64,000 bases of DNA from Tistrella mobilis (lineage in GTDB: Bacteria; Pseudomonadota; Alphaproteobacteria; Tistrellales; Tistrellaceae): positions 310,001 to 374,000 of the forward strand of contig NZ_JBBIAB010000004.1 in NCBI RefSeq assembly GCF_039634785.1, given 5' to 3'. Positions 40,039-45,780 of this stretch are shown one piece after another. The notes beneath the pieces were generated by a model. The model was not told where the DNA came from, did no database searches, and was given only the letters and a program-made list of their open reading frames with translations. The position numbers were made by a program, and so were the translations under genes. Each line of letters begins with the position of its first letter. The stretch's first letter is position 1.

Positions 40039-40590
40039 ATGCCCGTGATCGAAAACGCCCGCATCCTGATCCTCGCCACCGACGGCTACGAACGCGCGGA
40101 ACTGACCTATCCGCGGGACGAGCTGCTGCGTCGCGGCGCAAAGGTTCAGATCGCCGCCCCCGAAGCCGGCCGCATCCGCAGCTGGGATGAAACCGATTGG
40201 GGCGACCGGGCCGAGGTCGACCTGAAGGCCGCCGATGTGCGGATCGAGGATTTCGACGCCCTTGTCCTGCCCGGTGGCCAGATCAATCCCGACAAGCTGC
40301 GTCAGGTGCCCGAAGCGGTGAAGGTGGTGAAGGATTTCGTGGCCTCGGGCAAGCCGGTCGCCGCGATCTGCCACGGCCCCTGGATGCTCGTCGAAGCCGA
40401 TGCGCTGCGCGGCCGCACCGTCACCTCCTACCCCTCGATCGCGACCGACGTCCGCAATGCCGGCGCCAGCTGGATCGATGAGGAGGTCGTCACCGACCAG
40501 GGCATCATCACCTCGCGCAATCCGGGCGACCTGCCGGCCTTCGTCGACAAGATCGTCGAGGAAGTGGCCGAAGGCCCTCATGCCCGCTGA
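40039..40590 (+). CDS. DJ-1/PfpI-family (type 1 glutamine amidotransferase-like) protein
   Basis: 183 residues. The nucleophile elbow AAICHGPWML places C111-H112, and ILILATDGYERAELTYPRDEL near the N-terminus holds the conserved glutamate. These are the hallmarks of the PfpI/YhbO/YajL group of stress-related hydrolases or deglycases. GGAAGGAGA precedes the ATG. Stand-alone gene; reaction not resolvable from sequence. Confidence 0.9.
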   Translation: MPVIENARILILATDGYERAELTYPRDELLRRGAKVQIAAPEAGRIRSWDETDWGDRAEVDLKAADVRIEDFDALVLPGGQINPDKLRQVPEAVKVVKDFVASGKPVAAICHGPWMLVEADALRGRTVTSYPSIATDVRNAGASWIDEEVVTDQGIITSRNPGDLPAFVDKIVEEVAEGPHAR

Positions 40591-40628: not shown

Positions 40629-41795
40629 TCAGGGGGTCGTCAGAAAGACCAGCCCCCGCCGGGCGAGTGCCGCCACCGCGGCACGCAAGGCCGCCGGATC
40701 CTCCGACGGCAGGCCGGCCAGGATCTCGCCCATCGTCGCGATGTCGCGGTCCAGCAGCAGTGCCAGGATCGCGCATTCCGGCGCATTCAGGTGGGTCGTC
40801 ACGCCGCCAGCCCTGATGTCGGCCGGCCCCGTCGCCGGCAATACCGGGCGCCGGCGCAGGGCGGGCTGAACCAGAACCGCATCTTCCGGTCCGCCGGCCC
40901 CGGTGGCCAGCCCCAGGGCCATGGCCCCGGCCAGCGGGCGCGCCGCGGCCTGCGCCGCCTGGAAGCGGTCCAGATCCAGCCCGGCGCTCAGATCGGCCAG
41001 AACCGCCTTCAGCTGCGCTTCATACGCACCCCTTGCGGACGGATCCATCGGCACCGGTGCCGCCAGCCGGTCCGCCATCTCTCGCAGCCGCCAGCGCAAC
41101 ACCTCCGCCCCGTCCGGCCGCTGGATCGCCAGCGTCAGATGCAGCGACTGCCCGCCCGCCTCGGCAACCTCGGCACGGTGGTAGTCGCCCTTGGGCAGGA
41201 ACAGCAGATCCCCGGGCGCCAGCACCATCTCCGCCTCGGGCGGGCCCGGATCGCGGCGGGGATCGACCGTGTCGCCGCCGAAGGGCGGGTCGCTGCGCCG
41301 GCCGTGACAGAACCAGCGCTTGCGGCCGGCGATCTGCACCACCAGCACGTCATGGCCGTCGCGATGGATCTGGAAGGCGCCATCCCGGGTGAAGCTGGCA
41401 TAGGCATTGACGGTGACCGGCGCCTCGACATGACGTTCGACCATGGCGGCCAGCGCGGCCAGTGCCTGAACATGCCGATGCATGCCGAGCAGCACCAGGC
41501 TGGCCCCGCCCTGACACAGTGCCTGAAGCTGGGCATCCAGCAGCACCCGCCGGCCGTCGGGGGAAAGCCGGGTCAGCATCTCCAGCGGCACCTCGCGGCC
41601 CGCCCGCATCACCGAAACCTCGCCCTCGACCAGCGCCTGCGCCGACAGACGGGCATTCACGCCCGCCCATGGCAAAAGACCGGCACAGGCGGCTGCCTGT
41701 CCGGTCTTCACATGCAGGCGCTGCCCTGCCTCCATGGCCGCAGACAAAGGGCTGTCCGGGCATCGCCGCAGAAGATCTCTCAGTGTCGCGATCAT
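40629..41795 (-). CDS. JmjC/cupin_4-type 2-oxoglutarate oxygenase
   Basis: 388 residues. The iron-binding facial triad is H144-x-D146 (FQIHRDGHDVLVVQIAGRKRWF) and H206 (FLPKGDYHRAEV), followed by SLHLTLAI, as in ribosomal oxygenases of the YcfD/MINA type. Residues about 330-388 form a winged-helix-like tail (LNAPECAILALLL, AALRAAVAALARRGLVFL). Enzymes of this family hydroxylate peptide or protein side chains. Its start lies 21 bases after a 49-residue peptide gene with GAGGG between, so that peptide is a plausible substrate; a ribosomal protein is the conventional alternative. Confidence 0.78.
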   Translation of the reverse strand: MIATLRDLLRRCPDSPLSAAMEAGQRLHVKTGQAAACAGLLPWAGVNARLSAQALVEGEVSVMRAGREVPLEMLTRLSPDGRRVLLDAQLQALCQGGASLVLLGMHRHVQALAALAAMVERHVEAPVTVNAYASFTRDGAFQIHRDGHDVLVVQIAGRKRWFCHGRRSDPPFGGDTVDPRRDPGPPEAEMVLAPGDLLFLPKGDYHRAEVAEAGGQSLHLTLAIQRPDGAEVLRWRLREMADRLAAPVPMDPSARGAYEAQLKAVLADLSAGLDLDRFQAAQAAARPLAGAMALGLATGAGGPEDAVLVQPALRRRPVLPATGPADIRAGGVTTHLNAPECAILALLLDRDIATMGEILAGLPSEDPAALRAAVAALARRGLVFLTTP

Positions 41796-41816
41796 GCAGG
41801 CCCTCAGGCCCCGCCA

Positions 41817-41966
41817 TCAGGACGTGGTGGGACCTCCGTCGGGTTCGGCGACGTCCATCAACCGGGTCGCCGGCGCCAATGCCCAGACCTCAAGCGCCGG
41901 CCGCAGCCAGAGCGGGCGATCCTGAACCGGCTGCCGGTTTTCGGTCGCGATCTCGTTTCGCGTCAT
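41817..41966 (-). CDS. short peptide (49 residues), possible modified-peptide precursor
   Basis: Starts at the ATG at 41966, with GGGGG 7 bases upstream; a longer frame from 42005 lacks a good site. The product begins MTRNEIATENRQPVQDRP, continues LWLRPALEVWALAPATRL and ends MDVAEPDGGPTTS. The W-x-R-P-x-L-x-x-W segment followed by a small-residue, Gly/Thr/Ser tail is reminiscent of leader-core layouts of ribosomally made modified peptides. It is encoded just before the JmjC oxygenase, on the same strand. No database check was possible; real translation is likely from the ribosome site, but the function is inferred. Confidence 0.5.
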   Translation of the reverse strand: MTRNEIATENRQPVQDRPLWLRPALEVWALAPATRLMDVAEPDGGPTTS

Positions 41967-42054
41967 ACTTCTGCCCCCAATGACAGACGATGGCATTATT
42001 GCCATCCTGCTTCTTGATATCTGATCTGCGGTGCACTGTCATCAGACCGAAAGG

Positions 42055-42969
42055 TCACCTGGGCAGCATGCTCTGCGGTGTCTGATAGACCTCGGCAAAA
42101 TAGCCACGGAACAGGCGCATCGCGGGGCTGAGATCAACGCCCTGGCGCCAGGCCAGGCCGACATTCATCGGCGGCACCTCTTCGGCCATCACCACCGTTT
42201 CGATGCGTTTGCCTTCCAGCGACCAGGGCCGATAGACCATGTCCGACAGGATCGAGATCCCCTGGCCGTTGGCCACGATCGATCGAACCGCCTCGATCGA
42301 CGAGGTGCGCAGGCGGATATTCGGCTGGTGTTGGGTGCGGTTCCAGTATTTCAGCGCCGAATGGGCGGCCTCGTCGACGGTCAGCATGATATAGGGCTCC
42401 TCCGCGATGTCGCCGAAACGCACCCGGTCGCGGCCGAGCAGCGGGTGCCCGGCCGGCAGCCATAACCGCCGCTGGCTCGACATCAGGGTTTCGGTGACCA
42501 GTTCCGGATTGTTGACGTTGGAGGTCAGCACCACCGCCATGTCGAAGCGGTTGGTGACCAGCCCGTCCTCGATCATCTCGCGGCTGAGTTCATAAAGCTG
42601 AATGCGCAGATTGGGATAGCGTCGCTCCAGCCGTTCCAGATGCTGGGGCAGGAAATAGCCGAGCACGGTATAGCTCGCCGCCACCGACAGCGTGCCCGAG
42701 AAGGCATCATCGGCGGTGCCCGGCTGCAGCGCTTCCTCGATGCTCGCCAGGATCCTGTAGCCCGCCGCCAGGAAACGGCGGCCGGCATCGGTCAGCTCCA
42801 TGCCATGGGCGGTGCGGTCGAACAGCCGGCTGCCGGTCTCGGCCTCCAGCTCCTTGATCGCCGCGGTGATCGCCGATTGCGAGATCGACAATTCCTTGGC
42901 CGCCCGGGACACCTGCCCGAGCGTGGCAGTGGCCACGAAGTACTTCACGTGGCGGAAGTTGAGCGACAT
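42055..42969 (-). CDS. LysR-family transcriptional regulator
   Basis: 304 residues from the ATG at 42969, 8 bases after AGAAGG; the GTG at 42978 sits right on that site. N-terminal helix-turn-helix: LNFRHVKYFVATATLGQVSRAAKELSISQSAITAAIKELEAETGSRLF. A LysR substrate domain follows. It is divergent from the pxpA operon across a 274-base AT-richer region, so it most likely controls that operon. The peptide and JmjC genes follow it on the same strand after 88 bases. Confidence 0.92.
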   Translation of the reverse strand: MSLNFRHVKYFVATATLGQVSRAAKELSISQSAITAAIKELEAETGSRLFDRTAHGMELTDAGRRFLAAGYRILASIEEALQPGTADDAFSGTLSVAASYTVLGYFLPQHLERLERRYPNLRIQLYELSREMIEDGLVTNRFDMAVVLTSNVNNPELVTETLMSSQRRLWLPAGHPLLGRDRVRFGDIAEEPYIMLTVDEAAHSALKYWNRTQHQPNIRLRTSSIEAVRSIVANGQGISILSDMVYRPWSLEGKRIETVVMAEEVPPMNVGLAWRQGVDLSPAMRLFRGYFAEVYQTPQSMLPR

Positions 42970-43243
42970 CCGCGACACCTTCTGATTTTCAGATAATGCC
43001 TCACCGCATTTTCGGAACAGATGCCTGAACGGGGGTCAGCGCCCTCGATGATATGCATGAGAATGAAGGATTTGAAAGAGCCGTTGAAGATTCAAGCGTT
43101 CAATTTTTTCGATAATGCATTCTCATAATTTAGAAATTGCCGAGGGGTTAAATCATGGATCACCATATTGTCATGAAGACGTGAACAAGCGCGTTCCGGT
43201 ATCACGCCACCGCGTCGGATCGCATGCAGCAGGAGAGAGACGC
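42970..43243. promoter_or_regulatory. divergent LysR / pxp promoter region
   Basis: This AT-richer gap holds the arms ATGAGAATG (43057-43065) and CATTCTCAT (43118-43126), a 9-bp inverted repeat 52 bases apart, and the word ATAATGC twice, the second next to the right arm. Such spaced dyads suit a LysR tetramer that loops DNA. The region must carry both promoters; exact sites are not resolved. Confidence 0.45.
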
Positions 43244-44026
43244 TTGGCTAAAAGACTGGTCGATCTCAATTGTGATCTCGGTGAGAGCTTCGGCCACTGG
43301 ACGATCAGTGAAGCTCCGGACGATGTCCTGCTCGACCTGATCAGCTCGGCCAATGTCGCCACCGGTTTCCATGCCGGCGACCCCAACCTGATGGACCGGG
43401 TGGTGCGGCTGGCGGCCGAACGCGGTGTGGCGCTGGGGGCCCATCCGGGCTTTCGCGACCTGCAGGGTTTCGGCCGGCGGGTGATCCAGGCCCGGCCGGA
43501 AGAGCTGGTGAACGACATCATCTATCAGCTGGGGGCGCTGCGCGAATTCGCCCGCCGTCACGGCGTTCGCCTTCAGCACGTCAAGCCGCATGGCGCACTC
43601 TATATGGAGGTCGCCCGCGACGAGACCCTGTCGCAGCTGCTGGTCGAGGCGCTGCTGAAGTCCAGCCCCGAAACCTATCTTTACTGCATGGACGTGTCGG
43701 TGACCTGCGCGGTCGCCCGCGCCGCGGGGCTGCCGGTGATCCGCGAATTCTATGCCGACCGCGACTACGACAACTCCGGTTCGATCGTCTTCGCCCGCCG
43801 GATGCGCGCGCTGGACCCCGAGGAGGTGGCCCGCAAATGCGTCCGGGCCTGCCTGGAGGGCCGGGTCCGCACCGTCGAGGGCGACGATATCGAGATCGAG
43901 TTCGAATCGATCTGCTTCCATTCCGACACGCCGGGCGCGCTCAAGATCGGCACCGCCATCCGCGCCGGGCTGATCGATGCCGGCATCCGCATCGCCAATG
44001 CCGCAGAGGTCGCCGCCGCGGCCTGA
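43244..44026 (+). CDS. pxpA: 5-oxoprolinase subunit A (LamB/YcsF family)
   Basis: 260 residues from a TTG at 43244, 8 bases after AGGAGA; the longer open frame from 43115 is unsupported. All family blocks are visible: [52 protein letters not shown] and [14 protein letters not shown]. With PxpB and PxpC it cleaves 5-oxoproline to glutamate using ATP. It heads an operon that also holds a biotin carrier and a biotin carboxylase. Confidence 0.93.
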
Positions 44027-44037
44027 CGACCACGCCC

Positions 44038-44105
44038 GCCCTTCTCTTCCCCCGCCCGTCTCTTCCCCCCGCCCGTTTCTTCCCCCCGCCCGTCTCTTCC
44101 CCCCC
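44038..44105. repeat. C-rich tandem repeat, four units of about 17 bases
   Basis: Units of the form GCCCGTCTCTTCCCCCC (16, 17, 17 and 18 bases) fill the gap between pxpA and the biotin carrier gene. The tract is pyrimidine-only apart from single Gs, so unit number may vary by slippage and could alter coupling between pxpA and the genes after it. Confidence 0.75.
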
Positions 44106-44171
44106 GCATCTCCACGGTCTCAAGCCCCCGAACCACACCCGCATTCCTGCCAGCCGGAAGGACCCTCATCG

Positions 44172-44408
44172 ATGGCCGAAATCCGCTCGCCGCTTCCCGG
44201 TACCTTCTATCGCCGCCCGGCCCCGGACCAGCCGCCCTTCAAATCCGACGGCGACACGGTCGCGCCGGGCGAGGTGATCGGGCTGATCGAGGTGATGAAG
44301 TCGTTCATCGAGGTGAAGGCAGAGGTCGCCGGCACCATCACCCGCTTTCTGGCCGAGAACGAGACCCCGGTGATGGCGGGCGCGGTGCTCGCCGAGCTTG
44401 AAGGCTGA
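44172..44408 (+). CDS. biotin carboxyl carrier (biotinyl-domain) protein
   Basis: 78 residues, just a biotinyl domain, from the ATG at 44172 (GGAAGGA upstream). The biotinylation site is K43 in IEVMKSF, with the usual flanking IRSPLPGTFYRRP and AEVAGTITRFLAENETPVMAGAVL. It is shorter than housekeeping AccB because it lacks the long N-terminal region. It partners the carboxylase gene 7 bases downstream, inside the pxp operon. Confidence 0.9.
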   Translation: MAEIRSPLPGTFYRRPAPDQPPFKSDGDTVAPGEVIGLIEVMKSFIEVKAEVAGTITRFLAENETPVMAGAVLAELEG

Positions 44409-44415
44409 GGGCGCG

Positions 44416-45780
44416 ATGGCGATCCGCAAGCTCTTCATCGCCAATCGGGGTGAGATTGCGGTGCGCATCGTCCGCGCCGCACAATCCCTCGGCATCGCCA
44501 CGGTGCAGGGCCATTCCGAAGCCGATGCCGACATGCTGGCGGTGCGGCTGGCCGATCAGGCGGTGTGCATCGGTCCGGCCCCGGCGAAAGCCTCCTATCT
44601 GAACGCCGCCCGGATCATCGAGGCCGCAAAGGCCAGCGGCGCCGATGCGATCCACCCGGGCTACGGCTTCCTGGCGGAGAACGCCGCCTTTGCCGATGCC
44701 GTCGAGGCGGCGGGGCTGATCTTCGTCGGCCCCTCGGCCGAGACCATCCGGGTGATGGGCGACAAGGCCGCCGCCCGCGCCGCCGCCATCGCCGCCGGCG
44801 TGCCGGTGGTGCCCGGCTCCGAGGGTCGGCTTGCCGATGTCGAGGCCGCCGTGGCAGCGGCCGAGGCCGTCGGCTATCCGGTGATGATCAAGGCGACCGC
44901 CGGTGGCGGCGGCCGCGGCATCCGCATCGCCGGGACCGAGGCGGAGCTGCGCAGGCTGGCCCCGCAGGCAGCATCCGAGGCCGAGGCCGCCTTCGGCGAT
45001 GGCGGGCTTTATCTGGAGCGGGTCATCCGCGATGCCCGGCATATCGAGGTCCAGATCCTGGGCGACGGCCGCCACGCCATCCATTGCTTCGAGCGCGAAT
45101 GCTCCCTGCAGCGCCGGCGCCAGAAGGTCTGGGAAGAGGCCCCCGCCGCCTGCCTGGATGCCGCCACCCGCGCCGAGCTTTGCGCCTCGGCGGTGGCCCT
45201 TGCCCGTTCGGTCGACTATCGCGGCGCCGGCACGCTCGAATACCTCTATGACGAGGCGACCAACCGCTTCTACTTCATCGAGATGAACACCCGCATCCAG
45301 GTGGAGCATCCGGTGACCGAGATGGTGACCGGCATCGATCTGGTCGCCTGGATGATCCGCATCGCCGGCGGCGAGCCGCTCTCGATCGCACAACAGGATG
45401 TCCGCCTTCGCGGCCATGCGATCGAGGTCAGGATCAATGCCGAGGATCCCGCCAACGGCTTCATGCCCTTCCCCGGGCTGGTGGGCGCGATGTCGGTGCC
45501 AGATGCCCCGCATATCCGCTTCGACGGCATGATCTACGAAGGCTATCAGATCCCGCCCTTCTACGACTCGCTGCTGGCCAAGCTGATCGTGACCGGCGAG
45601 AGCCGCGGGGCTGCGATCGACGCGCTGGCGGCGGCGCTGGAGACGATCCGGATCGAGGGGCTCAAGACCACCATTCCGCTGCATGCGGCACTCGCCGCTT
45701 CGCCCGAGGTGCGCGAGGGCCGCACCCATACCCAGTTCCTCGAAGCCTGGCTGGCCGCAGGCGGCCTCGCCACCCGATAG
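44416..45780 (+). CDS. biotin carboxylase subunit
   Basis: 454 residues, full-length AccC-like ATP-grasp enzyme: FIANRGEIAVRIVRAA at the N-terminus, the glycine-rich ATP loop TAGGGGRGIRI, HIEVQILGDG, ECSLQRRRQKV and EMNTRIQVEHPVTEMVTGIDLV. It carboxylates the biotin of the small carrier protein. In this operon it probably serves the PxpB/PxpC pair, PxpC being annotated in many genomes as a biotin-dependent carboxyltransferase-like protein; a second housekeeping accC presumably exists elsewhere. Confidence 0.93.
   Translation: MAIRKLFIANRGEIAVRIVRAAQSLGIATVQGHSEADADMLAVRLADQAVCIGPAPAKASYLNAARIIEAAKASGADAIHPGYGFLAENAAFADAVEAAGLIFVGPSAETIRVMGDKAAARAAAIAAGVPVVPGSEGRLADVEAAVAAAEAVGYPVMIKATAGGGGRGIRIAGTEAELRRLAPQAASEAEAAFGDGGLYLERVIRDARHIEVQILGDGRHAIHCFERECSLQRRRQKVWEEAPAACLDAATRAELCASAVALARSVDYRGAGTLEYLYDEATNRFYFIEMNTRIQVEHPVTEMVTGIDLVAWMIRIAGGEPLSIAQQDVRLRGHAIEVRINAEDPANGFMPFPGLVGAMSVPDAPHIRFDGMIYEGYQIPPFYDSLLAKLIVTGESRGAAIDALAAALETIRIEGLKTTIPLHAALAASPEVREGRTHTQFLEAWLAAGGLATR

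Follow-up and report, generated by a model that had tools for sequence, protein, structure and literature searches.

A short peptide gene with lasso-precursor features beside a JmjC oxygenase gene in Tistrella mobilis: a probable precursor and its tailoring enzyme

A gene of 49 codons lies directly upstream of an oxygenase gene in Tistrella mobilis, and its position raises the question whether its product is the substrate of the oxygenase, and to what kind of peptide-modifying system the two genes would then belong. The stretch of DNA analysed here (the window) comprises 64,000 nucleotides of the Tistrella genome G000 (contig C4:310001-374000). The original prediction regarded the two genes as a possible minimal, compact system for a modified peptide. 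According to our analysis the pair is likely to consist of a precursor peptide and a tailoring oxygenase, which either separated from a lasso-type RiPP pathway or form a satellite of one. Positions of the features are given in Table 1.

Table 1. Features of the peptide-oxygenase pair and of its neighbours, with positions within the window
Feature	Position	Strand	Remarks
Precursor-peptide gene, lasso-type by pattern	41817..41966	-	49 codons, stop included; MTRNEIATENRQPVQDRPLWLRPALEVWALAPATRLMDVAEPDGGPTTS
Ribosome-binding site GGGGGC	41973..41978	-	6 nt 5' of peptide ATG
Leader motif WLRPALEVWALAPAT (W20-T34)	41865..41909	-	WxxPxL recognition-like; its Thr is the predicted penultimate residue of the leader
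Predicted core LMDVAEPDGGPTTS	41820..41861	-	Follows from the predicted cleavage site; register common to L005, L060 and most other RRE-linked peptides
Asp at core position 8, predicted ring acceptor	41838-41840	-	Assigned by register
JmjC (PF08007) 2-oxoglutarate/Fe(II) oxygenase gene	40629..41795	-	388 aa
Catalytic part	41178..41366	-	Invariant in 27 relatives; roles by analogy with JmjC hydroxylases
H144	41364-41366	-	
D146	41358-41360	-	
K159	41319-41321	-	
H206	41178-41180	-	
C-terminal winged helix, RRE topology	40632..40892	-	Three strands, three helices; from predicted structures
LysR regulator gene	42055..42978	-	Upstream of peptide gene and directed toward it, 88 bases between
PfpI-like gene	40039-40590		Convergent with the peptide/oxygenase pair

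Both genes of the pair are located on the minus strand, with 21 bases between the peptide gene and the ATG of the JmjC gene (41795). The gene, its ribosome site and this gap, all part of the original prediction, are confirmed from the sequence, and G-rich stretches likewise precede the homologous peptide starts at L003 and L004. Peptide and oxygenase genes are adjacent in all three Tistrella genomes, in which the peptide start, its length and the 49-aa frame are maintained. The middle of the peptide, WLRPALEVWALAPATRLMD, is identical in 3/3 genomes, and differences occur in the N-terminus and the tail only. Substitution rates of the peptide gene (pN 0.05-0.09, pS 0.09-0.19) are too noisy in a gene of 49 codons to be more than weak evidence. 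The peptide does not match any Pfam or NCBIfam family, and a degenerate-pattern scan of genome contigs yields matches in T. mobilis only.

The peptide resembles the precursors of lasso peptides in several respects. W/Y/LxxP constitutes a recognition sequence (PMC12710340), lasso precursors possess a Thr as penultimate leader residue (PMC10368454), and lasso rings comprise 7-9 residues (PMC8498205). The window peptide possesses both leader features (W/YxxPxL and the penultimate Thr) in the form of WLRPAL and a T at position 15 and, given the predicted cleavage site, an acidic residue in the core range 7-9, i.e. Asp8. In a register aligned on W or Y, T is present at position 15 in 10 of 15 peptides and Asp/Glu at position 24 in 11 of 15; with a lasso-like leader that ends one residue past the Thr, the acidic position 24 is core position 8 and thus falls into the ring range. 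All JmjC-linked peptides possess both Thr15 and core Asp8, and the latter is the sole core position with the same residue across the three independent ones; when tails were shuffled, an acidic residue occurred there in all three in 0.4% of trials. At motif positions 3, 7 and 16 the JmjC-linked peptides furthermore share R, D/E and R/Q, respectively, residues mostly absent from the other peptides.

A scan of 3,956 small ORFs in 695 kb of loci returns the full WxxPxL/T/D pattern for RRE/JmjC-linked peptides only; from shuffling, about 8e-6 matches would be expected per ORF. As these loci were chosen for their RRE or JmjC genes, and the motif was partly derived from some of these peptides, the scan is a consistency test and not a blind one. 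The precursor of G762 was added after the motif had been defined and still fits. By these sequence features the window peptide looks like a RiPP precursor of the lasso type that is partnered with the oxygenase, in agreement with the modified-peptide precursor proposed originally.

The oxygenase matches the JmjC_2 profile PF08007 with 63.9 bits (E 1.4e-17; curated cut-off 22). Its HxD...H metal ligands H144, D146 and H206, together with K159, are intact and unchanged throughout the relatives compared. The oxygenase of T. mobilis KA081020-065 is 94% identical to that of the window, and the JmjC gene shows a pN/pS of about 0.34 between G000 and G002. G000 possesses only this one PF08007 protein, and relatives at E 1e-12 are present in 45 of the 385 genomes of the class. 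In the tree the three Tistrella proteins of the window type group with a paralogue from a T. mobilis plasmid and a protein of Azospirillum, with support 100/100, or 80/62 once L107-L109 are added. A larger group, supported by 89/92, includes L109, a protein from a lasso-type cluster, as well as L107 and L108. The grouping with ribosomal-protein hydroxylases that would have counted against the original prediction is not seen with E. coli RoxA: its branch is very long and lies outside the alphaproteobacterial proteins, a placement that is unsure with a single reference RoxA. The AlphaFold2 model of the whole protein (pLDDT 82.8) has its best fold matches in NO66, MINA53 and YcfD. The window oxygenase looks like a RiPP hydroxylase and would most likely hydroxylate the core of a lasso-type peptide.

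The C-terminal winged helix reported in the original prediction is present in the AlphaFold2 whole model, where three strands and three helices are followed by a further strand. Modelled alone, the domain reaches a pLDDT of 87.3 with the same order of elements as in RREs; three strands followed by three helices, the element order by which PMC12710340 defines the RRE, are found by DSSP in both models. The prediction had also described this fold as one often used to recognise peptide leaders, an idea with which the structure searches are compatible. RREs are the top Foldseek matches (a cyanobactin-type heterocyclase, PbtF, and the lasso B1 protein TbiB1 bound to its leader) but with E > 0.05, and at Z-scores of 6-8 they are level with MINA53 and non-RRE winged helices. 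When its profile was compared with those of PqqD proteins by hhalign, the winged helix gave no significant match (probability 7.9%), and the RRE reading is therefore not sequence-based. RRE topology was rejected as proof of leader binding, as ribosomal oxygenases of the same fold also possess a C-terminal winged helix. In the models, the winged helix resembles RiPP recognition elements, though not exclusively.

Relatives of the pair are found in larger lasso-type clusters. The T. mobilis plasmid encodes a second JmjC protein, 38% identical to the window oxygenase, and plasmid p1 of Azospirillum sp. TSH100 one that is 63% identical to this plasmid paralogue. Each of these genes is immediately preceded by a short ORF (...AAWVRPTLDAMDLVTTTRVAGGFGPDNDLSPS in T. 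mobilis, ...AAWIRPVLEEVDIVTVTQANSNAVADQDPNQTASG in Azospirillum), and the two peptides share a WxRPxL[ED]...T segment, T15 and core Asp8. The spacing between peptide and JmjC gene is 21 nt in the window and 180 nt in Azospirillum. Neighbours of the plasmid paralogue are two PqqD-like proteins, a 2OG oxygenase, an asparagine-synthase protein, an HprK-like kinase and, by a weak reading from resemblance, sulfotransferase-like proteins. The best NCBIfam model of the asparagine-synthase protein is the lasso cyclase NF033535 (E 2.6e-68), its 231 bits being below the cut-off of 525; the relatives' PqqD-like protein matches the lasso PqqD model NF033536 with E 8e-17 and 61 bits, below the cut-off of 80. 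In Azospirillum an asparagine-synthase gene is convergent with the JmjC gene, followed by counterparts of the HprK-like kinase, of one of the sulfotransferase-like proteins and of PqqD, and a gene annotated as lasso B2 is located about 4 kb away. A second lasso-type precursor (WQTPDF..., with Asp8) lies directly 5' of the cyclase-like gene of the T. mobilis plasmid (L034:13254-13418), which makes two precursors in one plasmid region.

A third family, in G762 (L109, G762:C38), contains a more distantly related JmjC protein of 314 aa that lacks the winged helix. Its gene adjoins a doubled cluster of PqqD-like, cyclase-like and kinase-like genes, two of each, and a precursor that keeps the register described above; L109 is a natural test of whether the winged helix is needed when PqqD is present. 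The expectation that small ORFs occur upstream of close JmjC homologues is borne out for the plasmid paralogue and Azospirillum, but not for L107 and L108, fairly close full-length relatives in which an adjacent peptide was not detected. The peptide is retained beside relatives of the oxygenase, against the lack of conservation that the original prediction had named as a refutation.

JmjC_2 genes of Alphaproteobacteria occur in further settings. At L007/L065, L022, L027, L033/L072, L063, L067, L069, L071, L075 and L098 they adjoin repeat proteins, e.g. TDSDTGAYADPAGRGRG, many of which possess Tat-signal-like N-termini. In the proteins scanned, no Pfam or NCBIfam family covers these repeats; the proteins seem to be multi-core or calcium-loop-like substrates on which a second JmjC clade would act. 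L008/L110 (G283:C15) encodes a 50-aa peptide ending in RDFSDGGGGRSDNNDCG, with 46 bases between it and the JmjC gene downstream, and an ABC transporter relative nearby.

In the window, genes for a cyclase, a PqqD-like protein, a B2 peptidase or a dedicated transporter do not adjoin the pair, as the original prediction had noted for transporter and protease. On its other side the LysR gene diverges from a LamB/YcsF gene, behind which lie biotin-carboxyl-carrier-like and biotin-carboxylase-like genes (42055-45780). With the relatives' proteins as queries, tblastn detected no cyclase, B1 or B2 gene in the window; cyclase-like and PqqD-like genes are located on other contigs of G000, and a B2-like gene of this genome is distant only. 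Three loci, on C13, C17 and C6, possess both PqqD-like and cyclase-like genes. Around PqqD and Transglut_core3 matches, where other precursors of G000 were sought, WxxPxL peptides are encoded on C13, C17, C6 and C9 (L077, L078, L079, L080). C13 alone accounts for three of the at least six WxxPxL precursors in the lasso-like loci of Tistrella. Transglut_core3 occurs as one gene per Tistrella genome, located neither at the pair nor at any of the listed PqqD loci. As the adjacent cyclase and peptidase are missing, the pair is not classed as a lasso cluster, and since its relatives belong to larger lasso-type clusters, it may need partners encoded elsewhere. The description as minimal or compact is doubtful.

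A scheme for the pair can be proposed on this basis. The WLRPAL segment of the leader would dock on an RRE-type domain, which may be the winged helix of the oxygenase, the PqqD-like B1 proteins encoded elsewhere, or both. The JmjC domain would then use Fe(II), O2 and 2-oxoglutarate to hydroxylate a residue of the core, with Asp8 or a neighbour as the most likely site. Enzymes acting in trans, candidates for which are encoded in the genome, would cut the leader after R35, one residue past T34, and form any ring between Leu1 and Asp8 of the core. Maturation in trans has a precedent in the citrulassin deiminase, which is encoded outside its cluster. A narrower proposal is tentative and rather doubtful at present: the two genes would form a RiPP unit of their own, the JmjC oxygenase recognising a lasso-type precursor through its built-in winged helix and hydroxylating it with no dedicated PqqD, cyclase or peptidase gene alongside, and the product would either pass to shared lasso machinery in trans or remain a linear hydroxylated peptide.

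Other explanations account for parts of these observations. The pair might be an orphan remnant of a lasso-type cluster that lost its cyclase and peptidase, with a peptide left unmatured or repurposed. The lack of an adjoining cyclase, PqqD or B2 gene and the full clusters of the relatives would fit such a loss, but both genes are intact, syntenic and conserved in their motifs in three genomes, and the pN/pS of the JmjC gene and its intact catalytic residues also speak against it, so that we hold a remnant to be improbable. It is also quite unlikely that the oxygenase is a cellular ribosomal-protein hydroxylase of the ROX/RoxA type with an incidental ORF upstream. It is the sole PF08007 protein of G000, its best whole-model folds are ribosomal oxygenases, and ROX enzymes likewise possess a C-terminal winged helix; nevertheless RoxA of E. 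coli falls outside all its alphaproteobacterial relatives, the near ones of which are encoded in lasso-type clusters, the motif of the neighbouring peptide is conserved, and a housekeeping role is not suggested by an occurrence in only 45 of 385 genomes of the class.

The several precursors and cyclase/PqqD loci of G000 would also permit an oxygenase that acts in trans only, on the precursors of C13, C9, C17 or C6, while the peptide encoded next to it is acted on by a cyclase only. The residues R3, D/E7 and R/Q16, common to JmjC-linked peptides and mostly missing in others, make this very unlikely. A translated regulatory leader of the attenuator type, without a product of its own, is barely credible: the ORF is short and immediately 5' of the oxygenase gene, but its amino-acid motif is kept beside a paralogue of 38% identity and in two genera despite the different spacing, and the peptide fits the precursor pattern. 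A precursor with its tailoring oxygenase thus remains the preferred reading.

If it is correct, JmjC hydroxylases join the tailoring enzymes of lasso-type peptides, and the winged helix of ribosomal-oxygenase-like proteins would be tied to leader recognition. Several alphaproteobacterial "cupin" genes without known role may, as the pair suggests, be peptide hydroxylases. The pair is moreover a small and easily co-expressed system in which to ask whether a fused RRE is enough to direct a JmjC enzyme.

The pair probably belongs to a peptide-tailoring system undescribed in the literature searched: a JmjC hydroxylase paired with a lasso peptide is not described in the accessible parts of the sources retrieved, and searches on cupin/PqqD and on Sphingomonas peptides returned no matching description. 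RoxA/YcfD, NO66 and MINA53 have the JmjC domain, the overall fold and the C-terminal winged helix in common with the window oxygenase, but are distant in sequence and occur in another genomic context. The same domain pairing, an RRE fused to JmjC (PF08007), is noted in PMC12710340, along with bacterial JmjC homologues in RiPP-like contexts; the fusions in the accessible part of that source are fish and algal, with no precursor or lasso link. Paeninodin-type and proteobacterial lasso clusters with an HprK-like kinase (PMC8498205, PMC5067487) resemble the relatives' loci in their B1/PqqD-like, asparagine-synthase-type cyclase, HprK-like kinase and sulfotransferase-like genes, and in cores that often end in Ser; the accessible text of these sources does not mention a JmjC tailoring enzyme, and the window locus lacks their other genes. 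Among the RiPPs of the biphenomycin type, BipG hydroxylates ornithine in a precursor and PbsQ gives +16 Da (PMC12707348, PMC12257519). BipG, BpmG and PbsQ are, like the window enzyme, JmjC-type or cupin-like oxygenases in a RiPP setting, but their clusters comprise MNIO, B12-radical SAM and arginase genes and FRF cores, whereas the linked machinery here is PqqD-like proteins and asparagine-synthase-type cyclases, and the peptide is lasso-type. CanE of canucin A, an Fe(II)/2-oxoglutarate oxygenase, hydroxylates an Asp of the linear lasso precursor (PMC8498205); it acts on the C-terminal Asp and is encoded inside a lasso cluster, in contrast to the window pair with no adjacent cyclase. With BipG, PbsQ and CanE already known, the kind of system is known, and the variant is new.
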